Shown here piece by piece: positions 35,101 to 63,449 of a DNA stretch of 64,000 nt. A model generated the notes under the pieces. The model saw only the letters and a program-made list of their open reading frames with translations, ran no database searches and was not told where the DNA came from. Position numbers and translations under genes: made by a program. Source of the stretch: Owenia fusiformis (taxonomy: Eukaryota; Annelida; Polychaeta; Sabellida; Oweniidae); NCBI GenBank assembly GCA_903813345.2, contig CAIIXF020000005.1, positions 17,053,375 to 17,117,374 on the forward strand, given 5' to 3'. Numbering within the stretch: position 1 is the stretch's first letter; each line of letters opens with the position of its first letter.

Positions 35101-38100
35101 TATAGAAACTTAAAAAAAAGTTAATTAATTAGCTTTAGCATATTAAGTTCCTTATAGTCATATTATTGTTGAAATACACACGTTTTAACACTAACAGAGA
35201 AACTCCTTATAATGATTCTACATGTATATAGGGGAACATGGGGTAAAACGGCCATAGGGGCAAAACGGCCACCCTTTAAACTATGGCCGTTTTGCCCCAT
35301 GTTCCCTTACGAGTGTGGAAATTATTACCTTGGCCTGACAGCATTCGTTGCCTTATATTTGAAATGTAGCTGCACGCCTCTTTGCACAAAATATCAACCT
35401 GCAATAATCCAATTACAATTAACATTTGCTCCAAAATTGACAATTTTGGAATGGGCAATAATTGCATGACATGGGAACATTTATCAAAATATCAATTTAT
35501 GAGACAAATATTTTGGAATTGCTTACATTTGCCTGGTGTAAATTGATTTCCAAAAATGACACTTAAATTATAAATATGAGATGTTCAGAGAATGATTGTG
35601 AGCAATACAGAGAGTTTCTGGTGATGGATATAGGAGTTAAAGATGTTCGACATTTTGAGCGGTAATTAAATATTAGTGGCAATTTGTGAGACAGTGGGAT
35701 GTATACCACACTGTCGAGGATTAAAGTTCAGTCAGCCTTAGAATAATAAACGTTTTTCATATCTTTGTGTATTCTTTGTTTTCAAACAAAAGGTCCATGT
35801 GCAGTATAGCAAGTGATTTTAGACAGTCATATCTTTCACCGTGAGTATTTTCTGGGCATAAATATTGTGTTTTTTATTAAAACAATTTGTAACAATTTGT
35901 TTTGTTTCAAGTGAAGTCACCCATGATGATAAAAATATCAATCGAACATTTCGAAAAATTATGAATAGGGACCCATGTCAACATTTTTTTGAAAATGTTA
36001 TACCTATTTACTAAAACGAGGATCTTCTTTTTCTGATTTTCATTGCATGAAAAGATTATTCAAAAGTAGAATGGTATTGAAAGTCTAGTTTTGAAGATAT
36101 CAATTTTCGATGACCAAAATTATGCTGAAAACAATGAATAGCACGCATTTCAATACCCATACCCTTTTCAGAAGTTGTAAGAAACCTTCAATATGGTTAA
36201 ATCGAGAAAAACAAGATCCTCTTTTTAGAAAATAAGCCTAATCTTTTTAAAAAAAGTACCCGGATGGGGTCCTAAACCATAATTTTTCAGAGAGTTGGAT
36301 TGATATTTTACTATCCCGGGAACTTCACTTGAAAGAAAATATATTGTTTTTATAATAACCACTGTATTTATGGCCAGAAAGTACTCATGGTGAAAGATAT
36401 GACCGTCTAAAATCACTTGCCATACCGCACATGGACCTTTGGAATATGTTCACATAGTAAACTCGATGCAATATGTCATCCGAGTCGAGGAAAAATATAA
36501 CATAAAATAATTTTTCTAAAACGTTTAATGTCTTGGAATGTCAGTGTAAATAGGGCTACTATAAAACTATAATTGTTAAATTCGACATTGGAATCAATTT
36601 GAAATTCTCACATACAGACAGTCACCTTCACTGCATGGTTTCAACTTGAAATATTTTAATTTCTAGCCTCATAAATTGTCTTTCCTTTGAACTTAAAGAT
36701 TTTACATCTTATCCATCGTACTTTGTGGGTTTGTACAACCCTCCGCAAACAAGAACCTCATACCCTTAAACACATGTGTCTGATGGTTTGAAGTTATTTT
36801 GATTGTTATGTCACCACCAAAAAGTGGTGGTTTTCAGAAGTTCAAATCTGACTTTATATTTAAGATTTTACTTTCAATGAGCTTTTCAAGGTCAAAAAAG
36901 GTCAAAAGGCAGGTCTTCTTTAATTTGCTTTAAATTGACCATTTTTTCAGAATCATCTACAAGTTATCAGAAGTTCAAATCTGAATTTAGATTTGAAATG
37001 ACTTTAATTTAGATTTGAACTTCAATGACCTTGTGAAGGTCTGAAAAGATCAAAAGGATATTTTTAAACTTGCTTCAAATTGACCAGTTTCTTCTCTAAA
37101 TTCTCTCTAAGTTCAAATCTGGCTATAGATTTGCAATTGACCTTCAATGATATTCTCAAGGTCAAAATGTTTTAGCTCCAATAACCTTGTCAATGTCAAA
37201 AAGGTATTTTTCATCTTGCTTCAAATTGACCATTTTTTCAAAATCATCTACAAGTTCTCAAAATTTAAATCTGGCTATAGATTTGACCTTCAATGACATT
37301 CTCAAGGTCAAAAAAGATTTGACTTACAATGACCTATTCAAGGTCAAAAAGGTCTTTTTTCATCTTTCCTCAAATTGACTAAATTTTTTTCAAAATCATC
37401 TACAAGTTCTGAGAAGTTCAAATCTGACGTTAGATTTGAGATTTCACCTTTAATGACATTCTCAGGATCAAAAAAGGTATTTGACCAATTCATTTTTTCA
37501 AAATCATCTACAAATTCTCAGAAATTCAGAAATTCATATCTTACTTGAGATTGAACTCATAATATTGTGAGCAACTAGGTGATAACATTTTGTCATGTTA
37601 ATGCCTTGTTTGAGGTTATTTTATCGTATACCAGTTCCAGAAGTGTAGCTTTATAAGTGTAGGATAGATGGTGCTGACTGTGATCTTCGAGGATATCTTG
37701 ATCAATTTTCAGAAGGTTGAAACATTGCACTAAACGAGACTGTACTAAAAGAAAAAACAAACTGTTTGAAGGCCAGGAAATATATTTTAATCATTCCTTT
37801 AAATCATCCTCATGGCATTAGTTCACGAAAACAATTATATGTCAATAGCCCACTGCAAAAGGGAATGATTGATCAAGTTATGGTATTGTTAAAAAGCTCC
37901 CTCGTGGCACTTAAAAACACAAGATTTGGTTCTTGTTCAATTTTTATTGTTAAATCCAATGTTTTCTTTTAACCCTAGGAATGTAAACAAAGTAAAACAA
38001 AGAATGAACTACGTCAAACAATCATAGCCTAAACTTTTGTTACAATAATATAGTTTCCAGGGTTAATGTTTATGCTTTAAAGCGCAAATGTAGCTGTATT

Positions 38101-41100
38101 ATTATCTTTTTACAAAAACCATGTCTATAAAATTCTGATTGATATTACATCGGATGATAGCAATTCCTTTAATATTTTATTTCCTCTTATGAATGATTAA
38201 AACAAATATTTGTTCAGAGATACGAAACTGTTTTTTTTCACTCATGAGGAAAATAAAGATTATTAAAATATAGTTTTTAGAAAAAGAAAAAAGTAAGAAT
38301 ATACAGGGTGGGCCAATAAACAATACCCACGTTTAAAGATGAATGATTCCTATGATATATGTTAAACCATGCCATAATGTATTATACATTATTTTAAAGA
38401 TAAATCATTTCCTAACAAATGACACAATTCAAGTGAAAAACCTTTGTTTACTCGTGGAGTTAGACACTAAGATCGACACCAGGGGTGCCATGATCGACCA
38501 AAAATCAAAAAATGGAAATTCCCAAATTTCCTTCTATATTGCAATCACAGTTGCACTCAATATGCTTGACTGAATCATCATAAATTTATTTAAGAGTAGT
38601 ACACAATTGACAATTAATCAAAAATTTATAAGTATTATTGTTGAATATTGCACTATACTTGTATAAATGCACCTCTTTTGAAGGTGCCAAAGTTCAAACT
38701 TCCCTCCATTTTCCACAATTTGGAAATCCATAGTGAGTAACTTTTTTGGTCGCCCATGGCACCCCTGTTTTTTTAATCAGATGGTCTCATATTGTTAGGA
38801 AATGATTTTTCTTTAAAATTATATATAATACGTGACATGGTTTAACGTTATATCATATGATATTCATTTTTAAACGTGGGTATTTTTTGGCCCACCCTCG
38901 TATAAAAGGGAAAACTTGTACCTGGCATTTTTTATGACATTCTGCTTTTGTTAGATTTGAATATCTAACAGCCATTGTACACTGAAAGCAAAAATATTTA
39001 CAATATTACACAAGGGAGGTTCGGCTATACGTTTCAGGAGAACTTGCACGCGATCCTGTAATAGAACCCCTATCCCCTCATAATTGTTTTTTCCAGTGAC
39101 CTAAATACAACTTTTTTCCTTACTTTTCCTTATATAAATGGGAGAACTTATACATATAGCTAGATGGCCATAGTTCTACACGTCCACTTACAAGTTCTCT
39201 TTAAAACGTGTAGCTATTCTCCCTATCTTCAAGAGAGCTTCCACGTGGGCGTGTAGAATGATGGTCCCCTCTGGATATGTTTCCCTTTCGTAGGATTTAC
39301 TTGCCTGATTGACTATAAGCTGTAAGTCGTGTTTAGATTCTCGGAAAACGTTTAAAGGGGGCAGTAATTCTTAGAGGTCATAATTAATACGTTTACGTAC
39401 AAATTCTCTTTAAAACGTGTAGCTTAACTTCGCTATTTATATTATACATGTAGATGTATGCTTCCCATCTCACCTTACACGGTTCAATAGCTCATAACAA
39501 CAACAACTTTACCGAGTTCTTTGTCCTTTCAAAACATTTTTTGCTCAATGTTTATTGATTGACAGAACTTTAAGTCCAACTCTATTGTCTTAGCGTTAAT
39601 GTTTGAATAATTGAATTATTTCTTGCTTGTTGATTAATGTTGTCATTTTTAGTAATAATCCTTAATGATTAATTCAACATCTAATTTCCATATACTGTAT
39701 GCTGTGTATGGTAATGGTTCATTGAAATTGAAACAGTATCGGATATGCATGAATTGATATGTATTGAAAGTATAACGAGATGCCGTGATGTCCGCTCAAA
39801 ATTTGGTCATGTTTTGGACTTAATATGTGTCATGCCCAAAATAGTTCATGTAAAATTAGTATTAAATGTATTAGTTACGATAGTTTATGACTATTTTGAA
39901 GGGGAGGGGGAATTAGACACATCAGACACTGTTTCTTTTCACGTTGGATTGTGATTTGGGATAATTAATTTTCTTATCAAAAGCCAGAAATTAGCATGTT
40001 ATTTCCAGAGACACTACTGCATTCAGTACTAAAGGAAGAAGGAAATAAATATTCGTTGAAATTCTTAACGTATAAAAATCGCTTTACTTACATTATAACA
40101 CTTTGGTGAGGTTTCGTTATTACAACTAAATGGAATGTACAGCTTGTAAATGTTGTCTACATTTCTATTTCTCACACCGTACTGAAACAAAGTACAAGGT
40201 TTTTTTTATATTCAAACCATCAAAATGAATGGCAAGCCAATAATAGGGAGTTTAAGCTTGCATAAGAAATATGGCAAGCCAATAATAGGGAGTTTAAGCT
40301 TGCATAAAAATCGAAACTCCAACCTGTACGTATGACCAATCGCCCATATAAATCCATCGTTTAAATATTTTCCGTTCACGTTTAGGTTGTGAAAACGCCT
40401 TGCAAGCTTAAACTCCCTATTACTTCGATCACGCCGCGACATTCCTTCTTTCACGTACTGCACCCCATGCAGACAGATCGCCCAAAATTACATTAATATG
40501 ATGCTAGACTCGACATTAAACAGGAAACAAGAAACATTTTGTCACCAACGCAGCAAATTATTTTGACTGCTTAATATATGGTGAATGACAGTCACATTTG
40601 TTCTACAAGTATGAGAATAGCATGACGTCCTGATATTTCAGGGTCTGAGGGTAACTCGTTCGAAAAATGATGGTGGTGATTGAAATTGCGATGAAAAGAT
40701 AAAACCGCAACGAAACATTTGTAGAAATATACATCACATATGGAATTTTTCAAAACAGAAAAAATATGTATAAATAGTAAATCCTGCAGGTCTAATTTCC
40801 CTGGTAGCATTAACATTGGTGTCGTATATGTCGTACAATTAATACTTGAAACACAACTATTATTCGGACTTTTAATCCGACGTATTTGTGATGTGTACTT
40901 CAAGGTTCAAACCGATTATCTTCATTCACGTTCTTTGACAAGGATGAATCCATTTGAAAACACGGATTTCTTGATTATTCTTCAAACCTACCCTTGAAAT
41001 ATAAGTATGTGGGATATAACAGTGTAAATTGACACGCCTTTTGTTTGCTCCGTATCATGAAAGGCATGAAAAAATAAGTACAGGTACCATCTGTAAGTCT

Positions 41101-44100
41101 GTCAATATTCGAAAACAGAAAGTTCATTCTATATTTTAACAAGAAAAAATACATTTTGGTTGGTTCATGATGAAAAATGACAAATAAAATACATCATTTG
41201 AAGTAGTGGTATACGGACATAGGGAAAATTCAGAAATACCTTGAATATGTAACCATGGACTTTAATTAAAAGCCCATGATGTAACAGAACATCAAAATTA
41301 TGATCATTTACACGTTTTCTGATACAGGTAGAGGTTTACTTCAATTGTGGCACCATTCTCAGTAAATATTGATGAATACACGAATTTCTTATTAAACCTG
41401 ACTGTTCTATGGGGATCTATCTATCTATTTTTACTGAAATTCAACGTAGGTCTATATTTAATGAAAATTACGTTTTTCTAACGAGAACGATTTGTCATTG
41501 TCATACTGATTACTGAACACGATGTAATGGTATGTGCGTTCTCTTGTCAGGATCAAAAGTGACTAACCATTTAAGCACACCATTGGAAAGCCTTTTTTTG
41601 TCATATCGAATGTAGTTTTCATTTTTACCAAATAGACGTTTAACAACTGAGAAATCAAACATTTCGAATTAATAAGTAAACAGATTTTTTATTTTTTATT
41701 CATTCAAAAGTAAAAGGATGACGCCGTGTTTTAGTTCCATAATGAACATAATGTTACGTGTGTTTTGTTATTACAAGCCAAAATGACCAACCTAAATGGA
41801 ATTGGTCTTCTTTCCATTGTGCTTTTTTCAATCGTGATCAACTAATATTAGCCATGTACATGGTAACAAAGTGGAAAAAATCCCGACAACGGGTTCGAGA
41901 TAAAGATATAGGTTTAGCCACATTGGTTTATACCTGTAGTCTTATCCAATGTTATCAAAATGTGGTATGGGAGACTTTTCAATTTAATTTCAAAAACTTG
42001 ATTTTGAAGGAAAATCGTGAATTTATTTCAAATAAAACTTAAAGGACAACTGGAATAGCTTTTCTCAACTTGAAGCTACAAAAATGCGGTTTTCTCCATT
42101 GTAAGCCCAATGTAGAGTTCTTGCAATAGTAATTTATTGCGAAGTAATAATGAACACAAACACATAAATTGGTTGAAAAATAAGCAAGAAATTAAATCAA
42201 GACAGCACAAAAGCTTACAAGTTTAGTCTGTTTGATATGAAATTCCGATTTTTTGTTCCTAAATTGGCGGGAAATTCAAATAATCGAAAATTATAAGATT
42301 TACAACTTCAAAAGTCTCATATAGTCATGACAAGAAATTTTCTGACTTTGCACAGAGCCTTTAAATTAATTTAGTTGTCATGGGAAATTGTTGAATAGAG
42401 AAGGGGATGTTGAATGCTAGATAGCATATTCATTGGTATGAATTGTGGCTAATTAAAAGATATGAGTGACCTCTAAAAGTTGGTTTTAAATAAATTCACA
42501 AATTTTGGAACAAAAAGTCTATCAAAAACCACTTTTTGAAATTAAAAAAAAGTTTCACATATCACACTTTGATAACATTGGGTAAGACTACAATATAAGC
42601 CAAAGTGGTTGAAACTTTACATGGGGCCTTTAATGAATTAAACAAGCATTGATGAATAAAAGACTTATAACCACAAGCTTACATATTTATGAGCGATATG
42701 TCTTAGAACTATCCACGAATGAATATCTATATATTTCGTGTGTTGCAACATACTATCGACATTACATACCACCCGAAGCATCAGATATCGTTCCGTATTT
42801 CACTATTCATGTGAAAACTTTGCCAATGATTTTTTCATCCTCTCTAAGAATTCCTTTTTTATTTTGATATCATATCCTGTGAATATCACAGTAACCATCA
42901 CAGGGTCTATTGGAAAAGGCTATTGTTAACATTGATTACAATGTTCGTGATACACATGAATGGCTTTCAAACCCATTTTCAGTAAAATAAACCAATGCAA
43001 ATTATTATTGTTTTACACGATTTAAAGCACAGTGATCAACACATAATCAATTAATGATTAAATCAGTACTAGCAGTGATACTAGAATAGTATTACTTTAT
43101 TACCTTGAAGTACACATCATACTTATGTCCGATCATAAGTTCGAATAATAGTTGTGTTTTAAATATTAATTGACATACACGAGACCAATGTTAATGCTAC
43201 CAGGGGGAATCGGACCTGCAGGTCTTACTATTTATACATGTTTTCTGTTTTGAAAAATTCGATATGTGATGTATATTTTTTAGTTTTTCAAAGAAATCTA
43301 CAAATATTTTGTTGCGGTTTTATCTTTACACCGTAATTTCAATCACCGCCATCACTATTCAAACGAGTTGCCTTGAAATATCAAATCGTGCAATGTGGCT
43401 GTCATTCGCCATTTATTAAGCAATAGAGAATTAATTTGCTTCATGGTTGGCAAAATGTTTTTAGTTTCCTGGTGAATGTCGATTCTCGCATCATACGAAT
43501 GTAATTCTAGGCGATCTGTCTGCATGGGGTGTATAACTAGACTCTGCGCGCAGGGTAAGCAACGTGAGTAAATCACCTATAAAATGTACAATCTTTTTTG
43601 TTAGGGTCGCTTATGGGGTGGATCACGAGATGGTCATCTTCCGAACACAGGCCTCTAGAAGTCGTTACCACTCGACCGGCCCCTTGAATCTATCCTACAG
43701 GGTGTCCAAAAAAACAGGACCGTAAGAATGTTGAATAACTCGGTTAATTTTGTATATTTTGCATTGAAATTTCAGAATTATTTAGTTCATTCAATGTGAA
43801 TTTTGTTGTGAAAGTTTGATAATAGTCCGCCAGTTGAGTCAAAATCTACAGTTCCTTACAAAACATGGCCCAAATGTGCACCTCTCCTCCCTATGCACAA
43901 TTCAAATTGGACTCATTGGATTCCTGGTTTTTAGTTTTATTTCTTCTTATTTTGCATCTATTCATCTTTATGTAAAAGACCGACAGTCATCAGATCGATG
44001 GTCGTTTTTTTCGTAAACCCACATTCCCATTTGCCCAAAAAGGCCCACTTATTTAGGCCCTGCAAAAGTTTGGGGTTTTCTGGTCCTACCAAAGGGGAGC

Positions 44101-46864: not shown

Positions 46865-47530
46865 ACAACAACATGCATAGAGAGTTCAACAAAACAACAG
46901 CATGCATAGAGAGTTCAACAAAACAACAACATGCACAGAGAGTTCAACAAAACAACAGCATGCTCGTAGTTCGACAAAACAACACTATTGTTAAAGAATG
47001 CGACAACACGTGCGTCGAGTTAAAAAACAACAGTAACGTTGCAAAATGCAGAATGCGACACCATGCGTAGAGTTCTAACAAAACGACAACATGCGCACAG
47101 ATCAACAAAACAAGCGTATCGCTACAGAATGCGACAACATGCGTAGAGTTCCAACAAAACAACAACATGCGTGCAGATCAACAAAACAACTGTATCGCTA
47201 CAGAATGCGACAACATGCGTAGAGTTCCAACAAAACAACAACATGCGTACAAATCAACAAAACAACTGTATCGCTACAGAATGCGACAACATGCGTAGAG
47301 TTCCAACAAAACAACAACATGCGTACAGATGAACAAAACAACTGTATCGCTACAGAATGCGACAACATGCGTAGAGTTCCAACAAAACAACAACATGCGT
47401 ACAGATCAACAAAACAACTGTATCGCTACAGAATGCGACAACATGCGTAGAGTTCCAACAAAACAACAACATACGTACAGATCAACAAAACAACTGTATC
47501 GCAACAGAATGCGACAACATGCGTAGAGTT
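46865..47530. repeat. Tandem array: 29-bp units grading into six exact 76-bp units
   Basis: At 46875, 46904, 46933 and 46962 the 29-bp unit GCATAGAGAGTTCAACAAAA repeats. Then GAATGCGACAACATGCGTAG starts at 47051, 47127, 47203, 47279, 47355, 47431 and 47507, always 76 bp apart and nearly identical. The array lies 1.3 kb upstream of the FN3 gene start codon. Confidence 0.93.
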
Positions 47531-49690
47531 CAATGATTCATCGAAGTATCTTTTAGAATCAATATTTTACATTAAATAAGATTCATGTCAAAATGAAAAT
47601 CAATTTTTTTAATTATTTGTTTTTTTCAAATTCAAATCTCAAATAAAATAAGATTAGTGTCAGAATGAAATTGAATATATTTCACGATTTTAATAATTGT
47701 AACTTGACATTAAAAGTAATCTCGTAACATTGGCAAAACAAAAGCCACGTAGGTTATCGCAAATAATTTCAGACAGTTGTAGCTTAAAAACTATTTTCTG
47801 ACCATGAATGCAGGCATGTCTTTTAAAATTATGTAGCACATGTACATATGAGCTCATATGCCCATGGAAAAGGAAAAATAGAGCCCCACTTGACTTTATA
47901 AAGCATTGCTACAGGCCTGGATTATGTCATGTATAGATCAAACATCATTCATTAAACAGGTGACACCAACCATTTCTTATTCGATCTATATCACTATTAA
48001 TGCGATAAACGATGCCGATGTGGTGATGCATAAAATTGTTGAATTTACACATTTCCCATGGATTTTGCTTTTTGAAAATGTATGATATTAGTCATTTTCT
48101 CGTGGTTTAGATTGTTTGATTTCAGTCAATCTTGTCACTCTCATTTATGGATCATGCTCGGAAAACGTTCCGTTAAGTCACTGCCCCATTAGCAGCCCCC
48201 CTCCTTCTCATTACAGGCACACAATTCGTTGCTATGGTAACAAGTATTACCCTGAAAATAACAGTACTTGGTGGTAACTTGTCATCACTTTTTTATCTTA
48301 TGTATCATAAAATGTTGCATACGTTTAGAAATAACGTTTTATGTTAATCTTAAACTCATTTAACAAAGCGCATTACCTATACGTAACCGTAAGAAACATG
48401 CGGATAGGGATTTACATATCTTTTTACGCTCATCTTGAACGCCCTATTAAATGCCATATCATGAGTTTTATAATAAACATGTACATATTCATGTATGTTG
48501 GAAAAAATGGACCAAAATGGACCGAAACACTCATGAAACAAGAGTGGTTTAATTTGACACCAAAATCACACAAAAGGTCAATTAAGTGAGTTACAACCTT
48601 ACATTATTAATTATCATGTTGTTTATTTTGTAGCCAGTTTTTGGGAGGGAGAGGCTCTAATCCCCCGCCCACACATGTTTTTTCCATGCTTAACCAATTT
48701 CTTGCGTAATGTCAAGTGTCAAGACATCAGGGGCGGGCCCATCATGCTAAACCATGACATCTCAAATCTTCTCAGCCCTGAGGTGAAACAGAAAGATGCT
48801 ATGAGTATCATAATGGGGCCGGCCCGAAATCTAGAAGGGAGGAGGCCTCTAAATTTTTCGCGCCTGGGCCGGAAAATTTCCCTCCAAAATTTTGAAAAAT
48901 AATGCCCATATTTTAAAAAACAATTAATGTCAGATTGTTCTTTAAATTTCCCAGTTTATGTGGGTAGGAGTAGAGTTTGGACCCCAATTTTTTCGGAACC
49001 CACCTTAGGAGACACAATGTAAGATTTTGCACTTTACACACACACCATTCATTCAAAGAACTCTGGTTGCGATTGATTGTGGTTAATATCAGTTTAAAGC
49101 AGACTATAATATAAATCCCAATTTAATTTTCATAGTTTGACAATACAGGCAGTTTTTCCTAGTAAAATAGATGGTAGCACGTCATTGCTCTTGTTTCGTT
49201 TCTTTCTTTTAAAAGGAGCATCTCTTATTGAAAAGAATTAATAAAATAACTCGTTGAATTAAATAGGCTACATACTCTTGAAAATTGGACTCGCGCTAGA
49301 TGTCATTATGGTACAATTATGAGCCAGGATTGTTGCAGAGGTATTTCATTTGACTGAGCGAATACGCTTGTTAAAAGTATATCTTGTAACCCCAGTTGAA
49401 TTTGCGGTGTCAGCAAGAGGTACGGCGTGTACAATAAATCGTATTAACATATTAGGCGTTGGTAAAACTGTGACAAGACATAGCATCATGAGAACGTGCA
49501 CTTAAAATAGCCTAAATGAATCAAGCGTGCAAAATGCATCCTGTAAGCGCCGTGCTCCAGACATCATCCACTGGCAACGTTAACTACGTACATTCCGTCT
49601 TCCAAAAGGGAGAAAAGGAGATACGAGTTCTGGAGGCCTGTGTTCGGAGGATATCGATGGTGAACATGTTAAAGATTCTCGCAATCTTTA
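47531..49690. other. Intergenic sequence between the two genes
   Basis: No recognised gene or repeat boundaries. Frames of 75-82 codons at 48341 and 48675 lack any domain character. Confidence 0.4.
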
Positions 49691-53565: not shown

Positions 53566-53706
53566 AAAAAATCAACAAATATGTCCAGCCGTTGCCAACT
53601 TATGAGTGACAATAGGTAAAAGCATCCTCTACGCCACATTTTAAAAATACATTTAGTACTTGTCATTTCAGGTGGGTTGTTCTGGTTTCAGTAGGCGCTA
53701 TCCAAG

Positions 53707-53869
53707 ATGGCTTTTTTCTCTGGAACCAACATATTTGTAGGAACAGTTGCTGCTTTTATTGCTGCCGTGTATTTGAATTACCCAGCACCAGAATTATCAC
53801 CATCCCTGGCACGTTGGAAACAGAATGGGAATTACTTTGATTACAAAGAAATTAAGATATTTTATAGAG
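53707..53869 (+). CDS. MEST: MEST exon 1: start codon and membrane anchor
   Basis: The ATG in TCCAAGATGGC starts 54 codons plus one base. A hydrophobic stretch ([15 protein letters not shown]) is followed by [14 protein letters not shown] and [12 protein letters not shown], all in the places expected for MEST. Donor TAGAG|GTATAT. Possible 5'UTR acceptors (CATTTCAG at 53671, GGTTTCAG at 53691) lie just upstream, so a non-coding first exon may exist. Confidence 0.9.
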
Positions 53870-56800
53870 GTATATAATATTATTAGAGAGCTTTCGATAT
53901 AAGTTATTTAGAATATGTACACGCAAACCTGTACTTTGTACAAGTCATGTATAGCACTGGGGAGGAACTCTGGAAGCGAAAATAGGGTGCTTTCATCCTT
54001 CAAATCACAACAAAATATTCGGCAAGTATGTAGTTTGTGAGTTCCGGTTTCAAAATATGATTATTACTTGAAATCAATTCTTCTGCCGGGATATTCACAA
54101 ATCAATTCCCCTGATTAGGAAACAAGGAAATTTTTCTATTAAAATGTACATTTCTGGTTTCTAAATTCTCAGTTGGGTTATATTCGAGATCAATAACCCA
54201 GTTAATACGTGTAATGTGTGACGTCATAACGCTGGGTCGTAGTAATGGCGGACCATGATGAATTTGGTGAGTTTTCATGTTCTAATCGTAATATAGACCT
54301 CAGAGCAGGGGTAATATCGTCGAATACACCCCTTGGGGCTAGGCACAAAAGCTTTCGAACCCGAACGACCGAACGTTTGTGCCTAGCCCTGCGGGGTGTA
54401 TTCGACGATATAACCCCTGCTTTTCGGTCTATATTTCTTAAATAGACACCTATTTTGGCAAAAATAAAGAATAAAACATAATAATACAGCACTTTAGTCC
54501 ATGGTGCTATGGATTTGTGGGTTATGAGTTTGGTTAATTTATCGGTCATCCTTATATACTGCTTTGTTTCAAATATTTTTATATTGAACAAATTAAATCA
54601 TGAATTTTTAAAGAGATTTGAGGTGACATGCTATGGAGAACCAGTTAAGTTGATATAATTTGGCAGTTAATCTTTATGGTTTATCTTTATGGTGTTTGCT
54701 TTAAGATGCACAATCATGTACATTGTCATACATAAGAATTATCATCTATTTCTTCAGAAGAAACATCGCCAGTGACTAAGAATTTATCCCCACTTGTGTG
54801 TCTACACGGTTTTCCAACATCTGGCTATGATTGGCATAAGGTGAGGTTTTAATCATAGCTTTCAGGCAGCAGTCATCTTCGCACGCTCCGGTCTTCTCTA
54901 CGTTCGACCGACGGGAGTCGAGTGAACAAAGATGGGCAGCAGTAGTAGAATTATATAAATGGATTGATTGGTCTGTCAACTTTAGAGATCTAATCATCTT
55001 GTGTCATTACTTGTAACAGCTTGAGGCAAAGATTCTCATTCAGCTTTAGTGGCAAATTGAGTACAATCTAGGCACCCCATGCAGACAGATCGCCTAAAAT
55101 TACATTTGTATGATGCAAGACTCGACATTTACCCAGAAATTGAAAAAAAATTTCCACCCATGAAGCAAATTGATTTTTTACTGCTTTATAAATGGTGAAT
55201 GACAGTCACATTGAGTTCTATAAGTATGCAAATAGTTTGACGTCTTGATATTTCAAGGTAACTCGTTTCAATACTGATGGCGGTGATTGAAATTACGATG
55301 TAAAGATACCCTGCGTGCAGAGTCTAGTTAAACTACACTCTGCCTAGTAGAGACCATATTACAGTTAAGTAGCCCCGCCCCCAGGACGGGTACCGGTGAC
55401 AGTTTGGGTAGTAAATCACTTCTGACCTACGTGCTGACCTTTCTTCCACCAATCAGCGAGCTTGAAGAAACATACGCCAAATGCGTTCTAATTAAATATG
55501 CGTATGTCATTGGTCAATTCCGGGCTCAACGATGACGTCAGAAGGAATGCCCATATATAGAACGTCGGTCAAATTTGGCCGACGAACACTGATTGGCGCG
55601 GTGAGTTCACAGGTTTATTTTAGTTTGAAAGAGTGAAGACGAAGATCTATTTTAAGAAGTGAAGTCAAACGAATGCAAAGGGTAATGTAAAGATAAAACC
55701 TCAACGAAATATTTGTAAAATTCTTTGAAAAACTAAGAAATATACAACACATATCGAATTGTTCAAAACTGAAAAAAACATATATAAATAGTAAGGCCTG
55801 AAGGTCCGATTCCCCCTGGTAGCATTAACATTCATGGTCTTGTGTATGTCATACAATTAATATTTGAAACACAACTATTATTCGAACTTCTGATCGGACA
55901 CAAGTATGATGTGTACTTCAAGGTTATAAAGTAATACTAGTATCATACTAATGTCTGATCATAAGTTCGAATAAAAGTTGCGTTTCAAATATTAATTGTG
56001 TGACATATATGAGACCAATGTTAATGCTACCAGGGGGAATTGGACCTGCAGGCCTTACAATTTATTCATGTTTTTTTTGTGTTTCGGAAAATTCGATATG
56101 TGATGTATGTTTTTTAGTTCTTCAAAGAAATCTACAAATATTTTGTTGCGGGTTTATCTTAACATTGTTTTTTCAATCACTGCCATCACCTTTTTCAAAT
56201 GACGTTACCTTGAAATATCAAGACATCATGCTATTCTCATACTTATAAAACTTAATTTGGCTGTCATTCACCATTTATAAAGCACTAAAAAATTAATTTG
56301 CTTCACGGGTGACAAATTATTTCAATTTTCCTGGTGAATGCCGAGTATCACATCATACAAATGTAATTTCAGTTGATCTATCTGCATGGAGTGCTAGGGC
56401 TCGGTCAAAATAGCAATTGTTTTTCGTAGTGACTCAGGAGCCCCCCCCCCATTCCTCTTACAAAACAATCAATCTTGATTTTGTCAAGTAACAATTTAAC
56501 ATGAACGCCACCTGTATGTTTGTAGATGTTCCCAGAATTAACGGAAAAGTTTGGACGTGTTATAGCAATGGACTTCATAGGATATGGATTCAGTGATAAA
56601 CCAGTAAGAATGATTATACAGGGTGTTCATACATTTACAATTCAGAGGACACCCTATACTTTATAAATCTAGTTCTCCATATCCATCAACAATGTTGTAT
56701 TCATATTCTTGTTATTGTTACAATATCATTAACATTTTCAATTGCTGTACAGTATATTGTAATTATGTCACCACCAATAAGTGGTGACAAATTGTTATGG

Positions 56801-59800
56801 TCTCTGTTTTATTGTGGCAGCAATTGGCGGTTGGCAATCAGTGGTTGACGGTTGGCATCTGTAACAAATTCTTAAAACTTCCAATAACTAACAAATACTG
56901 TTTAGACTGACTTCAATTTTTTTCAAAATCATCTACAAGTTTTTAGCAGTTGACTGACTTGATATTTAAGATTTGACCTTCAATGACATTTTCAAGGCCA
57001 AAAAGGTTAAAGGTCAAAAAGGCATTTTTTCAACTTGCTTCAAATTGACCAAATTCTTTTTGCAAAATCACCTACAAGTTATCAGAAGTTCAAATGTGAC
57101 TTTAGACTTGATATTTGACCTTCAATGACCTTCTTAAGGTCAAAAAAGGTCAAAAAGGTATTTTTTAACTTGCTTTAAATTGACAATTTTTTCAAAATCA
57201 TCTACAAGTTCTCAAAAGTTAAAATCTGCCTTTAGATTTGAGATTTCACCTTCGATGACATTCTGAGGGTCTAAAAAGGTCTTTTTTCAACTTGCTTCAA
57301 ATTGACCAATTTTTATTTTTCAAAATCATCTACAAGTTCTCAGAAATTCAAATCTGACTTCAGATTGAAATTATAATATTGTGAGCAACTACAACTAGGT
57401 GGTGACATTTTGTCATGTTATGCCTTGTTTACAATATCACACATTACATAGACATGGAGCTTAAACGAATTGAAACATCTAGATTTCCAAAAAACATAAG
57501 TTATTTAAATTTCCCATCCCTCTAATTGTACCAAATCTCTGTGAGTTCAGTGGCCACACAAATTTTGAACACCCTTGTATTGTAGGTTGACCATGATTAC
57601 AGTATAATGGAGCAGGCTGATATCATTGAGGCTCTGCTAAATAAGCTTGGTGTAACTAAAGTTCATGTCTTAGCACATGATTATGGAGATACTGTGGCTC
57701 AAGAACTCCTTGCAAGGTGAGTGGAAAAACAATTAATTCTACATCTTGAAAAGCCAGAGTGAAAAATATATAAGTCAAAGAATTCCTTGCAGAAATGACT
57801 GTAACCCTATTAGTTATACATGTATGACTCTAACTGACTTTGTTCAGTTTATACTACAGTATATTAGTTATGTATTAAAATGTGTGTAATTGGTCTTTCT
57901 TTACTAATATCATCAAAATGACATCAAACATTGTATTGTATATTATATATTGTAAAGTGGCAAAAACAAGTAAAAAAACAAAAAATGCTCTGATATTCTA
58001 GGTAAAAAGAAATGTATAACATACTAGTTTTCTGATAAACAAACAAAGAATGCCTGCAGGCCCATAGTCAGCTTTTGTCAAAGGGGATTCACTTTTGACA
58101 ACTTTTGCTCAGAATCACTCGAAAAGTGCTCAGAATGGTTAAAATTTACCCATTTCTTGTTTTGATCATGTTAATATTGCACAACATGATACATCCATTA
58201 ATATTGTATAACCAATTTTTATTTTATTTTAATCCTATTAAAGGTTTGAGGATAGGAAGGCATCAGGCAGCTCCCAGGGACTACACATTGAAACAGTTTG
58301 CCTGCTTAATGGTGGTATGCATCCATATTCAATTATATTTAAAACATATACCTCGCTCTGGTCATATACACATTGAAGATCCTGCTAGAATAAAATCACA
58401 GGACTCTTGAATCTTCAATGTAAATTCAATGATTGCAGAATTCAATGATTGCAACCAGTCTGCATGAATCTGGCTTTATTTATGATTCAGTTATTTTACA
58501 AAAAAGAATAAATATTTTCTTGTTTAAATGTAAAACTATGTATTATAGGGTTTGTGTAAAAAACCGGGTGACCGGATACTTAACGTTCCTAGCAGGGTTA
58601 GGAATTTTTTTTTATTTATAACGTTGGATCTGGACGATACATGTTCGTTATTTTTGACGTCACGTTTTGAGGTTATTTCACATCGTAAGAACGTTTTGAC
58701 AACGTTAACTTTTAATGTTAGAATAACGTCGGTAATGAACCGATTTAGTGAGAACATATTTACATCTTTGTAACGTTTCCTTAACTCACAAATACGTCTG
58801 TCAAGTCAATTCGCTACTATATATCGAGGGAAATGTGGAACTTAGAAAGTTGGTAACCCTGCTAGGAACGTTAGGTACCCGGTCGACCGGGTACCCAGTT
58901 ACCCAGTCACCCGGTTTTTTACACAAACCCCTATGTATAGGTCAAGTTTGTAAATATTTATTGAATACATTGTAAACAGAGATTTGTAAATGTCTTCTTC
59001 AAAGGTATATTTCCTGAGACCAACTTTCCTAGAATAGGTCAAAAAGTAAGTCAATACTTGTTGAATTACATGGAATAAATACCTTAGTTCCAATAATAAA
59101 CAAAACTATGTCTACACTTTACATTGCTGAAATGTTACTGCTATATTACAGTATAGTCCCAAAATTGCTAAAAAAGTAGTTAGACTCCAGATTGAAAATC
59201 TGGAGTCTATTGCTTTTGCCAGTTTTCTTATTATTATTAGACTCCAGATGAAATCTGGAGTCTATTGTTTTCGTCAGTTTTCTTATTATTCTTTTTCTTC
59301 TTCTTCTTCTTATTATTATTATTCCGAGCAAGTTTTCTCAATAACCGTAAGGTTTTCAGTAAAGTCAGTCATTTGGTCAATTTAGGTCCAGAATCTAGTT
59401 CCTCGGAAATTGGGTCAAATTTTTATCTAGGTCAAAGGTCGAGAACTAGGTCAAATCCAGTACTTTGTCACTTTTTTCGATTTTCTCGGTCGTCCTTCAA
59501 TATTTTCGATCCGGGTTTTTTTCATTGTGTTCCTTATAAAAAAGTAGGAAAGCTAGGGTCGATTTAGTTTTTTGATATCTCAAACCGATTTCGAGATATC
59601 AGTGTCCGAAAAAAAGGTCCAAACAAAAGTTCTCCGAATCAAATGTCCAGGATATTAGTCTTATAGGAAATCTTCTCAGGATTCCAAATCTGAAAACAAA
59701 ATTTGGATCAGACTTCCGGTTCTGAAGTTATGGCGTTTTGAAAGCTCAAAAATCGCTAAATTTGGAGCCCATGTTAAGTCAATGGGAAAAAAGATTTTAT

Positions 59801-62800
59801 TGAAGTGAAAAATACGAAATATAGACTGAGTTCAGCTAAATATAATGAAAGCTTTTAAAAGAATGGGATCTCAAAAGCCATCTAGCTTTAAAATTTGGAC
59901 ACCAAAATGCCTAGGTCAAAATCTAGGTCAAATTCAAAGTTTTTCCTTATTTTTGCGATTCTGACACTACAGATTAATTATACTTTTCAAAATTTTGTAT
60001 ACATGTAGCCAAGAGTGTGCTAATAGTGTTAGCCTTTTGCCGTCAGAAAGTATTTTGCCCCACTTTTGAGATATGGTGTCCGAAAAGTAGGTCAAAATAA
60101 AAAATTCTCAAAATTTGACGTTTGAGTTATGAATTAAGAATAGAATTTTCTCAGGAATCCGAATCTGCAAACCAAATTTCGATTCGACTTCCGGTTCCGA
60201 AGTAATGGCGTGTCCGAAAAGTAGGTCAAAATAAAAATTCGCCAAATTTAACGTATGAGTTATGAATTAGGGGTAGAATTTTGTCAGGAATCCGAATCTG
60301 CAAATCAAATTTCGATCCGACTTCCGGTTCGGAAGTTATGGCGTTTTGAAATTTCAAGAAAAATTGATCTGATGGTATCCTGATAGAAAGTCAAGAGTAG
60401 AGAAGAAAATATTGAAAAATGCATCCATCCTTCCTTTCTGATCCTATCCTATCCTTCCTATCTACCCTTGCTTCGTATCCTCTCCTTCCTATCCTTCCTA
60501 TTCTATCCCTTCTTCCTATTCTATTCTATCCTTCTTTCCTAGTCTATCCTATCGTTCCTTCCTATTCTATCCTATCCTTCCTTCCTTTTTCATCCATCCA
60601 TCTTTTGCTGGATGACTTAGCTTATTTTGGATGACTTGGCTTATTCTGGATGACTCGGCTAAAAAAAAGTCTAGATCTGGAGTCTGAAATTGAACTCGTT
60701 CAATTTCCAAAATCTAGTTATTATTATTCTTTCTTTCCGCGTTTTCTCAGCAACTAGAGGGACTTACTTAAATCTGCTAACATAGTCAACTAGGTAATGA
60801 GTTCTAGTTTCTGGGAAATTAGGTCAAATGTTTATCTAGGTCAATGGTCAAGAACTGGGTCAAATCGTCACTTTTCGCTATTTTACAAGTTTTCTCAGTC
60901 GCCCTTGGGTATTTTCGCTCCGGGTTTTTTTCATCGTGTTCCTTAGAAAAAAAGCTAATTCCCTAAGGCAAATCGTTTTTTGATTACTCTTACCGATTTT
61001 GAGATATGGCGTCCGAAAAGTAGGTCAGAACATAAAAAGTTCTCCAAATTCAACGTGTGAATTATCAAATGAGTGTGGAATTATCTCAGGAATCCGAATC
61101 TGCAAACAAAATTTCGATCCGACTTCCGGTTCGGGAGTTATAGCGTTTTGAAATCTCAAAAATCGCTAAATTTGGTGCCTATGTTAAGTCAATGGGAAAA
61201 AAGGCTTTTTCGAAGTGTAAAATACAAGATATAGACTGGGCACAGCTTAACATAATGAATGCCTATAAAAGAAGGGGACCTCAAAAGCTACCTAGCTTCA
61301 AAATTTGGACACCAAAATGCCTAGGTCAAAATCTAGGTCAAATTCATAGTTTTTCCTTATTTTTACGATTCTGACACTACACTTTAATAATTTGCTTCAA
61401 AATTTTGTATACAGGTAGCAAAGAGTGTGCTTATAGTGTTAGCCTTTTGCCGTCAGAAAGTATTTTGACCCACTTTTGAGATATGGTGTCCGAAAAGTAG
61501 GTCAAAATAAAAAGTTCTCCAAATTTAGCATATGAGCTATGAATTAAGGGTAGAATTTTCTCAGGAATCCGAATCTGCAAACCAAATTTCAATCCAACTT
61601 TTCGTTGGGAAGTTATGGCGTTTTGAAAGCTCAAAAATCTCTAATTTTGGTGCCCCATGTTATGTCAATGAGAAAAAAGATTTTTTTGAAGTGTAAAATA
61701 CCAGATAAAGACTGAGTACAGCTTAAGATTCTGAAAGTCTATAAAAGAAGGGGACCTCGAAGGCTATCTAGCTTTAAAATTTGGACACCAAAATCCCTAG
61801 GTCAAAATCTAGGTCAAATACATAGTATTTCCTTATTTTTGTGATTCTGGCACTACACTTTTAGGATTTGCTTCAAAATTTTGTATAAAGGTAGCAAAAA
61901 GTGGGCTAATAGTGTTAGCCTTTTGCCGTCAGAGAGTATTTTGACCCACTTTTGAGATATGGTGTCCGAAAAGTAGGTCAAAATAAAAAATTCTCCAAAT
62001 TTTACATATGAGTTATGAATTAAGAGTAGAATTTTCTCAGGAATCCGAATCTGCAAACCAAATTTCGATCCGACTTCCGGTTCCAAAGTTATGGCGTGTC
62101 CAAAAAGTAGGTCAAATTAAAAAATCAGCCAAATTTAACGTATGAGTTATGAATAAGGGGTAGAATTTTGTCAGGAATCCGAATCTTTAAATCAAATTTA
62201 GATCCGACTTCCGGTTTGAAAGTTATGGCGTTTTGAAATTTCGAGAAAAATCGATCTGATGTTATCGATATGATGATATCCCCATGTTAAGCCAATGGAG
62301 TCGAAGATAAAAAATGGAGAGTTGTCTAAATGTCTAAATTCTAGCTGACTCGATCAGCTTATTCTGGATGACTCAGCTTACAAGTATTCTGGATGACTCA
62401 GCTTAAAAAAAGAATTAAATCTGGAGTCTTAAATTGAACTTGTTCAATTTACATGTCTAGTTATAATTTCTGTAATCAAACATCTTTGCACACTCTGTTC
62501 AGATGTCTGATGAGAGGTTAGGGGAGGCATCAAAAGTTCGATGTCAGATAGGAAACTAAATAAATCTAGTTAGGGGGGAGGGGGTTCAAACCCATTTCAG
62601 TTTGCTATCCGACAAATTTCAACATTTCAAATTTTTGGCATTTTCGACTCTGAATGCCTTGGAATGGTTTTAAAATAAAGATTTTACCTGATGCTTTCTT
62701 CATCAAGATCATTCCAATGGATTCTATTCTATCAATAGTTATTAACCCTTTCACGACGATAGGCTCCATATGGAGCCCTATTATGTAATACCTTTCAGGA

Positions 62801-63449
62801 CGATAGGCTCCTTTTGGCACCATTATTTTTATTTATATACATCAATGAAATGACAATATCTCCAGTTCTATTCAGTATTTTTACACCAAATTTTGACAAG
62901 TTGTTCTTATGTGATAATCCTTACTAAAAATTGTATATCAGTGATGAAATCCAAGGTATAGGTCCCAGGGCATAGGTATTTTACAGTTTTCCCCTAAAAA
63001 ACACTCTTACTTATCCGTCACTGGGGACAACATTTTCCTCTTATATTCACGTCGGGAAAGGGTTAAAAGCCGCAAATTATGATAGGAATTAACAAAAACT
63101 AAATCGTGTTTAGCAATAATTTTTCAAATTCTCGAACCGGAAGTCAGCGATCAACTTTCATTGTATTTAGTTTTTGGGGAGGGGGGGGGGGGTCAGAGTC
63201 AAAACTAGATTTATTTAGTTTCCGATCCGACATCGAACTTTTTATGCCACCCCTTAGTGAACAAAGATGAAACAAACATATAATACACAGTAACATTAAT
63301 AAAGATCACAATGCATAAAATAAATGCATTTTGTGATTGTACCAAATATTCTAACTTTCTAGCTTTCTTGGTTGTGTGTATTTGCTTTTTACTCTTTTTA
63401 CTCTGTAGGTATTTTTCCTGACACCCATCATCCCAGATTGATTCAAAAG
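53707..63449 (+). CDS. MEST: MEST-like alpha/beta hydrolase, exons 1-6 (3' end outside window)
   Basis: Six exons give 567 nt (189 codons) with every splice phase consistent. From recalled family sequences the product matches mesoderm-specific transcript protein (MEST/PEG1), an epoxide-hydrolase-like alpha/beta hydrolase of the endoplasmic reticulum with an unsettled substrate. Visible order: N-terminal membrane anchor (residues 9-22); LSPSLARWK (30-38); [10 protein letters not shown] (71-80), which holds the oxyanion HGxP motif; [11 protein letters not shown] (98-108); nucleophile elbow [13 protein letters not shown] (138-150) with Asp140 as predicted nucleophile; [14 protein letters not shown] (171-184). 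Vertebrate MEST is about 335 residues, so the second half, including the cap and the catalytic acid and His, should lie to the right. The introns carry many transposons, but the exons look intact. Confidence 0.92.
54290..54436. mobile_element. 147-bp hairpin MITE in MEST intron 1
   Basis: AATATAGACC...GCAGGGGTAATATCGTCGAA and GGGGCTAGGCACAAA are mirrored on the right by TTTGTGCCTAGCCC and TTCGACGATATAACCCCTGC...GGTCTATATT. Two frames (66 and 129 codons) pass through it on opposite strands and are artefacts of the palindrome. Confidence 0.8.
54758..54840 (+). CDS. MEST: MEST exon 2: HGxP motif
   Basis: Acceptor ATTTCTTCAG and donor CATAAG|GTGAGG. 83 nt, phase 1 in, phase 0 out. Contains [16 protein letters not shown], the oxyanion-hole loop of the hydrolase fold. 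Confidence 0.93.
54874..54934 (+). mobile_element. Ultra-short MITE, 61 bp, perfect 9-bp TSD
   Basis: CATCTTCGCACGCTC...GACGGGAGTCGAGTGAACAAAGATG with GGCAGCAGT exactly duplicated at 54865-54873 and 54935-54943. Best-preserved member of the family. It lies in MEST intron 2, just after the exon 2 donor. Confidence 0.85.
55315..55674 (+). mobile_element. Insert with promoter motifs inside the foldback arm
   Basis: The arm sequence breaks after ATGTAAAGATA (55301-55311 region), and the same 11 bp recur at about 55685 before the arm resumes, marking an insertion with an 11-bp direct repeat (9-11 bp usable). The insert begins CCCTGCGTGCAGAGTCTAGT and ends ACGAATGCAAAGGG. Its two ends reappear together at 45058-45115, and the left end near 43540, so it is a mobile or repeated unit. 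Confidence 0.65.
55373..55601 (+). promoter_or_regulatory. Dense core-promoter motif cluster
   Basis: In order: GC box CCCCGCCCCC (55373), CCAATCAG (55449), inverted CCAAT ATTGGTC (55509), a consensus CRE TGACGTCA (55533-55540), TATATAG (55554-55560), and about 40 bp later GGCGCG|GTGAGT, a good 5' splice site. The order and spacing fit a Pol II promoter with a short first exon on the plus strand, the same strand as MEST. Function is inferred from motifs only. Confidence 0.5.
56526..56603 (+). CDS. MEST: MEST exon 3: strand before nucleophile
   Basis: Acceptor GTTTGTAG and donor AAACCA|GTAAGA. 78 nt, phase 0 in and out. It encodes [20 protein letters not shown], matching the MEST/epoxide hydrolase D-x-x-G-x-G-x-S-D-K-P segment. 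Confidence 0.93.
56763..57430 (+). repeat. GTCACCACC-family element, copy 2, in MEST intron 3
   Basis: Starts TTATGTCACCACCAATAAGT and has the GGCGGTTGGC head lost from copy 1. It then has four tandem units with CAAAATCATCTACAAGTT and ACCTTCAATGACATT, and ends AGGTGGTGACATTTTGTCAT. Confidence 0.82.
57586..57716 (+). CDS. MEST: MEST exon 4: nucleophile elbow
   Basis: Acceptor TATTGTAG and donor GCAAG|GTGAGT. 131 nt, phase 0 in, phase 2 out. Contains [13 protein letters not shown] and the elbow [16 protein letters not shown], where Asp of HDYG is the predicted nucleophile. Confidence 0.94.
58244..58314 (+). CDS. MEST: MEST exon 5
   Basis: Acceptor CCTATTAAAG and donor GGTG|GTATGC. 71 nt, phase 2 in, phase 1 out. 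It encodes [11 protein letters not shown], then [12 protein letters not shown], corresponding to the family CLSNGG motif. An overlapping longer frame in this stretch is a shadow. Confidence 0.88.
58544..58930. mobile_element. hAT-like MITE, 387 bp, in MEST intron 5
   Basis: GGGTTTGTGTAAAAAACCGG near the left end and inverted at the right. The arms continue with AACGTTCCTAGCAGGGTTA. CTATGTAT is duplicated at 58536-58543 and 58931-58938. Termini are shared with the 19019 element. Confidence 0.85.
59165..62465. repeat. Composite Helitron-like repeat block with about 478-bp tandem units
   Basis: Starts with two copies of the hairpin AGACTCCAGAT...ATCTGGAGTCT (59179, 59239). Segments end with ATCTGGAGTCTGAAATTGAA, hairpin TTGAACTCGTTCAA and TCTAGTTAT at about 60725 and 62462. 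Bodies share GCCTTTTGCCGTCAGAAAGT (60031, 61441, 61918) and CCGACTTCCGGTT. CTTCCTATTC microsatellite at 60419-60600. The hairpin followed by CTAG|T fits a Helitron 3' end, as inference. Confidence 0.65.
62521..63253. mobile_element. PIF/Harbinger-like MITE, 733 bp
   Basis: Left GGGGAGGCATCAAAAGTTCG and right inverted GGGGTGGCATAAAAAGTTCG, with arms of about 55 bp including AACTAAATAAATCTAGTT. TTA flanks both sides (62518-62520, 63254-63256), the 3-bp target used by Harbinger elements. A second element sits inside. Confidence 0.8.
62746..63062. mobile_element. piggyBac-like MITE, 317 bp, nested
   Basis: CCCTTTCACGACG at the left and CGTCGGGAAAGGG at the right, with TTAA on both sides (62742-62745, 63063-63066), the hallmark of piggyBac insertion. 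Inside, TTTCA(C/G)GACGATAGGCTCC occurs twice. Confidence 0.82.
63409..63449 (+). CDS. MEST: MEST exon 6: 41-nt microexon
   Basis: Acceptor TTTTTACTCTGTAG and donor CAAAAG|GTGATT. Phase 1 in, phase 0 out. It encodes (G)[13 protein letters not shown], aligning with the family GIFPETHRP..LQK. It lies 5.1 kb after exon 5, behind a block of transposons, and was recognisable only from the expected peptide and phase. Confidence 0.85.

Follow-up and report, generated by a model that had tools for sequence, protein, structure and literature searches.

LTR-derived alternative promoters that come with a splice donor exist, and a solo LTR is recognizable by TG...CA ends and a duplication of 4–6 bp; SINEs derived from RNA genes carry a head resembling a tRNA, 5S RNA or snRNA. 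Among DNA transposons, target duplications of 9–11 bp are given for Mutator elements (PMC3310237) and of 8–11 bp for MULEs (PMC6446971), and the excerpts of both papers describe Mutator inverted ends as usually long. The excerpted text of a survey of 100 animal genomes counts 370 Pack-TIRs, mostly hAT or TcMariner (87.2%), and reports no Pack-MULE in the 100 reference genomes (PMC8277862). The same excerpt describes the frog element hAT-N8_XT, which spread a 291-bp 5'-UTR fragment from CAPSL, the Drosophila element Ssk-FB4 with its 9–10-bp duplications, and eight human Pack-TIR cases judged likely driven by host-gene promoters (PMC8277862).

We analyzed a stretch of 64,000 nucleotides from Owenia fusiformis (hereafter the window), in which a gene encoding an alpha/beta hydrolase closely resembling MEST harbors a short insert in sense orientation within intron 2 (54841–56525). 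The MEST exons were located with a human MEST peptide as query, which aligned at 53737–53868 (48% identity), 54793–54843 (71%), 56538–56603 (73%) and 57592–57717 (61%), and the joined exon 2–3 peptide matched Abhydrolase_1 in Pfam (E 2.7e-10). The features of the locus are collected in Table 1.

Table 1. Features of the insert, its flanks, the host repeat and the neighboring MEST exons (window positions; distances in bases from the assumed transcription start).
Feature	Position	Strand	Remark
Host foldback repeat CACCCC...GGAGTG, CTAGG/CTAGG flanks	55073–56393		MEST intron 2, interrupted by insert
Insert, putative non-autonomous TIR element	55307–55684	+	378 bp, TACCCT...AGGGTA; 9-bp duplication, inverted ends, uninterrupted sister arms
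Left target-site duplication ATGTAAAGA	55298–55306		to 55308 (11 bp) if shared TA counted
Right target-site duplication ATGTAAAGA	55685–55693		to 55695 if 11 bp
Near-palindrome GCAGAGT...ACTCTGC	55317–55343		adjoins left end of insert
GC- and CpG-rich promoter-like block	55369–55610	+	49.6% GC, 17 CpG, o/e 1.14; limits chosen by analyst
GC box CCCCGCCCC	55373–55381	+	−211
CCAAT	55449–55453	+	−135
Inverted CCAAT (ATTGG)	55509–55513	-	−75
Palindromic CRE TGACGTCA	55533–55540		−51
TATA box TATATAG	55554–55560	+	−30
Predicted first exon, 17 nt	55584–55600	+	inferred from assumed start
Splice donor GTGAGT (G/GTGAGT, first intron base 55601)	55601–55606	+	+17
MEST exon 2	54758–54840	+	encodes 12-residue stretch
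MEST exon 3	56526–56603	+	first codon ATG, phase 0
Remnant of left end of insert (TACCCTGCGCGCAGAGTCTAGTTATA)	43532–43557	-	adjoins outer end of another foldback arm

It is near certain that the 378-bp insert is a mobile element that was inserted into an arm of the foldback. The target duplication is perfect (9 of 9 positions identical), as are the inverted ends over their 6 bp, with termini of the type TACCCTGCG...AGGGTA. Three sister arms, namely the right arm of the same foldback and half-copies at about 43087–43531 and 40460–40907, pass uninterrupted through the insertion point; they are diverged, with a few mismatches at the site itself, and it is these empty sites that bring a true insertion near certainty. 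Of 405 tested pairs of TACCC...GGGTA lying up to 12 kb apart in the window, the insert alone turned out to be flanked by a 9-bp repeat when two mismatches were allowed, and its own repeat contains none. The original prediction was right to describe a mobile insert that interrupts a foldback arm (here the left one) and is bounded by an 11-bp direct repeat: ATGTAAAGATA is found at 55298–55308 and 55685–55695, its only two occurrences in the window when both strands are considered. We nevertheless prefer the 9-bp duplication, since the 11-bp choice gives a 376-bp element with offset ends, and the limits first proposed for the insert, 55315–55674, are corrected to those in Table 1. As DNA, the whole insert folds only slightly better than its shuffles (z −1.24).

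The host foldback is a repeat in its own right. In five blocks around the insert, its arms are 84–92% complementary. It is palindromic, its ends read CACCCC/GGAGTG, and CTAGG flanks it on both outer sides as a 5-bp repeat. We take the CAC-type ends and 5-bp duplications of the foldback to recall Transib-like elements. Exact patterns from a foldback arm, which reveal close copies only, gave 0 matches in viral contigs and genome contigs. An Rfam search of 54800–56550 at E up to 5 returned 13 matches, all under the gathering scores, of which 12 were to microRNA families at the foldback centre (55813–56035) and one to a snoRNA (55096–55207). Other repeats of the window include two tandem arrays, at 47049–47531 (period 76, 6.4 copies, 96% matches) and 60997–62097 (period 476, 2.3 copies, 88% matches). 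On the minus strand at 43600–43690, GGGGCCGGTCGAGTGGTAACGACTT...GTTCGGAAG looks by eye like the head of a tRNA-derived SINE, and ARAGORN calls no tRNA there.

The 9-bp duplication combined with inverted ends points to a Mutator-like element. With 9 bp, or 11 bp when the shared TA is counted, ATGTAAAGA lies inside the 8–11 bp of MULEs; MULE terminal inverted repeats are usually long and absent from some groups, and those of the insert are 6 bp and perfect, with no long repeat between both ends. We call the insert Mutator-like from its duplication and ends rather than a member of the Mutator group, for which a transposase, more than one copy and inverted ends of greater length would have to be shown. 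A Tc1/mariner-type TA duplication was rejected, as it would leave the 9-bp repeat unexplained. It is highly improbable that the promoter-like interior arrived by retroposition or within an LTR, be it as a solo LTR or as a derivative of a SINE, snRNA or spliced-leader gene. A promoter followed by a short exon and a donor does resemble the layout of an LTR or a spliced-leader gene. However, a solo LTR was rejected on the TACCCT/AGGGTA ends, found in place of TG/CA, and on the 9-bp length of the duplication. The folding of the putative transcript part of the insert does not surpass that of shuffles (z 0.19), and a spliced-leader origin was rejected as well. A SINE or other RNA-gene origin was rejected since ARAGORN found no tRNA gene in the window and none of the 13 Rfam matches touches the insert; at gathering scores Rfam returned nothing in the window. 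A scan for bacterial promoters and terminators had no bearing on the insert.

Between its ends, the insert carries a GC box, CCAAT, inverted CCAAT, CRE, TATATAG and a splice donor, all present and in the order originally claimed. All distances were measured from one assumed start (55584), placed 30 bases past the first T of TATATA, and from there the six motif distances correspond to textbook spacing. The predicted 17-nt first exon is unusually short, and the one Inr pattern used had 0 matches in the insert. By a rough score built on base frequencies, the insert donor ranks 5 among 3,521 GT sites on the plus strand and top within the intron; on the same score the MEST donors of exons 2, 3 and 1 rank 3, 127 and 265, so that of the insert falls between exon 2 and the others. 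Base composition sets the insert apart as well: it has 45% GC vs 33.9% for the window and a CpG o/e of 1.05 vs 0.61, and among 378-bp stretches of the window 1.8% match its CpG count and 0.2% its GC. The GC and CpG excess is concentrated in the block, the parts on either side of it having 42% (left) and 32% GC. It is plausible from this anatomy that the insert carries a working promoter, and the notion of a ready-made promoter plus first-exon donor holds as architecture only, that is, in motif order, spacing, CpG and donor rank.

How far could such a motif cluster be due to chance? Dinucleotide shuffling of the insert, repeated 20,000 times, gave all six motif kinds together in no case and at least five in 0.03%, and every 378-bp stretch of the real window with at least five of the six overlaps the insert. 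The window holds 276 TATA-like sites on both strands; upstream of 2 of these a CRE lies within 60 bases, and 1 has a CRE, CCAAT and a GC box. The corresponding numbers of TATA sites with CRE, with CRE and CCAAT, and with CRE, CCAAT and GC box were 14, 6 and 0 in 300 shuffled windows and 9, 2 and 0 in 20,000 shuffled inserts. Both the six-motif and the TATA-arrangement tests are post hoc, framed once the motifs had been seen, and their chance probabilities overstate the case because the motifs were chosen before testing. A broader test, with a list of 21 generic motifs, found 6 kinds in the insert, a count reached by 21 of 2,545 stretches, 13 overlapping the insert and 8 not (starting at 56201–56351 and 59351), and in weighted score the stretch at 56351 reaches 5.64 vs 5.52 for the insert. 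By this count the insert ranks within the top 1% of stretches without being unique. An ordinary MITE, in which the motifs cluster by coincidence or as a relic devoid of promoter activity and the element lies inert in the intron, would fit the shortness of the motifs, the eight equal stretches and the one higher weighted score. We consider it rather unlikely, as order, TATA spacing and donor are jointly unmatched by the shuffles and CpG is high.

Our first choice, held tentatively, is a non-autonomous Mutator-like element in MEST intron 2 with a Pack-TIR-like captured cellular promoter as its cargo. A 378-bp cut-and-paste element, itself non-autonomous, would have entered an arm of the older foldback in sense orientation, having captured, in Pack-TIR fashion, a cellular promoter together with the end of a first exon and a bit of intron. 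The block between the 42% and 32% GC ends would then represent a Pol II promoter anatomy and a transcript start with its 5' splice site. This capture is favored by the perfect duplication, the empty sister sites, the motif shuffles, the spacing, the donor rank and the GC/CpG excess, and the animal Pack-TIRs described in the survey excerpt offer a precedent (PMC8277862). It is weakened by the 6-bp inverted ends, the post hoc nature of the tests, the 21-motif count and the report, in the same excerpt, of no Pack-MULE among the 100 animal reference genomes (PMC8277862). It is further weakened by the left end, which at 42% GC is already above the window mean, by the 17-nt exon and by the missing Inr.

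Capture may also be dispensed with, if the insert is an internally deleted DNA transposon in which the block was the promoter, and the donor the first-exon donor, of the element's transposase gene. MITEs as a rule originate through internal deletion, and the block does sit between both ends of one insertion. Mutator ends, moreover, are known to hold promoters, according to the excerpt of PMC3310237. The block is nonetheless unlike the end parts in GC and CpG, a comparison that depends on limits chosen by the analyst. Likewise, the Tc1/mariner promoters studied in the excerpt of PMC6446368 are AT-rich with weak motifs, although they belong to another superfamily and the hobo promoter is described there without that feature. 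We regard such an internal deletion as a serious if lesser possibility, close to the captured promoter.

Vertebrate MEST is known to use alternative promoters, and no paper on them was among the literature matches listed, as judged by titles. As originally noted, exon 3 opens with an in-frame ATG (start 56526, phase 0), and a junction from 55600 to 56526 could possibly place a 17-nt leader ahead of this codon. It is improbable, though, that MEST uses the insert as an alternative promoter that yields an N-terminally shortened protein from the exon 3 ATG. The sense orientation, the phase of exon 3 with ATG as its first codon and a donor that outscores those of exons 1 and 3 (below exon 2, by the rough score) would suit such a use. 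Against it, the first exon would have just 17 nt, and the product would have neither exon 1 nor exon 2, including the HGFPTS stretch that lies within the alpha/beta-hydrolase match. The product would lack part of the hydrolase core, so that an active enzyme is unlikely. The likeliest consequence at MEST would be none or minor, possibly occasional transcripts from near 55584 spliced from 55600 to 56526.

Two further observations concern the MEST-like gene itself. Its likely start codon (about 53707) lies within CCAAGATGGC at 53698–53715, a sequence that we take to resemble a YY1-type site. Farther downstream, two homologous 41-bp candidate exons of 14 residues each, with AG directly before and GT directly after, are found at 59005–59045 and 63409–63449. 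Since 41 is no multiple of 3, both together would shift the frame, and the pair looks mutually exclusive; their peptide matches are weak (E 1.6 and 0.015).

The element was originally predicted to be a repeated one, with ends that also occur elsewhere in the window. For the left end this proved correct once: the first 26–27 bases recur at about 43531–43557 on the minus strand (92.6% identity, E 1.1e-5), and for a 19-base core of this end, with N at the sole differing position, 0.01 chance occurrences are expected at up to 3 mismatches. For the right end, the best second match in the window had E 0.87. The left-end remnant has no promoter motifs in it, and no matching duplication for it was found in 36000–43500. 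Beyond itself, its own palindromes and this remnant, nothing in the window matches the insert at an E below 0.87, and it is therefore no copy of the MEST upstream region; a duplicate of MEST's own promoter was rejected for want of any similarity. The window has one full copy and one remnant of about 26 bp lacking the promoter, which by themselves do not support the idea of a repeated element that spreads a promoter.

No relative came from other sequence collections, which were searched mostly with exact patterns. Phage records had no match to the insert, and exact patterns, by which only close copies are detectable, gave 0 matches in viral contigs for the left end and the CRE–TATA stretch and 0 in genome contigs for the sequence around the inverted CCAAT. 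A looser 17-base left-end pattern selected 22 viral-contig loci. By BLAST, 21 of these had short matches to the insert (17–26 bases) around the selected motif and one, L013, had none; L007 had an extra 19-base match away from the motif (E 0.69). The best locus, L006, was rejected as a relative: both of its matches sit in tandem repeats within an open frame of 1,038 aa, and the likeness was for that reason taken as a coincidence. No description of such an element was seen among the literature matches listed (titles and starts of abstracts), and the papers containing the terminal 9-mer look unrelated by the same text. It is doubtful, and on balance unlikely, that a Pack-MULE-like invertebrate element disperses a captured TATA/CRE/CCAAT promoter and donor as a 'first exon cassette' for new starts in the introns it enters. 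Should other copies keep the block and start transcripts, the locus would be a clean animal case in which a complete promoter with a CRE and a splice donor was moved by a DNA transposon. New starts would then arise along another route, through cargo that itself supplies promoter and first exon, given that the eight human Pack-TIR cases likely use host promoters, as stated in the survey excerpt (PMC8277862).

Overall, the locus presents a well-defined insertion with a cargo that is suggestive but unproven. Among known systems, it resembles the Mutator-like elements covered in the excerpt of PMC6446971 (Phantom, Rehavkus and mollusc groups) in its 9-bp duplication, within their 8–11 bp, and differs from them in having neither long TIRs nor a link to a named family. 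With LTR-derived alternative promoters it shares a mobile promoter and first-exon donor placed in sense within an intron, yet it differs in ends and duplication length. With promoter-supplying DNA transposons it would have in common a promoter sequence derived from a transposon, the insert being known by motif anatomy alone. Finally, compared with Pack-TIRs and Pack-MULEs such as Ssk-FB4 and hAT-N8_XT, as described in the survey excerpt (PMC8277862), its inverted ends are very short and the window has one full copy, but the likeness extends to small size, inverted ends, duplication and a GC-rich interior reminiscent of the 5' part of a gene. As in a Pack-TIR, this interior, presumably of non-transposon nature, lies between transposon ends inside one duplication.
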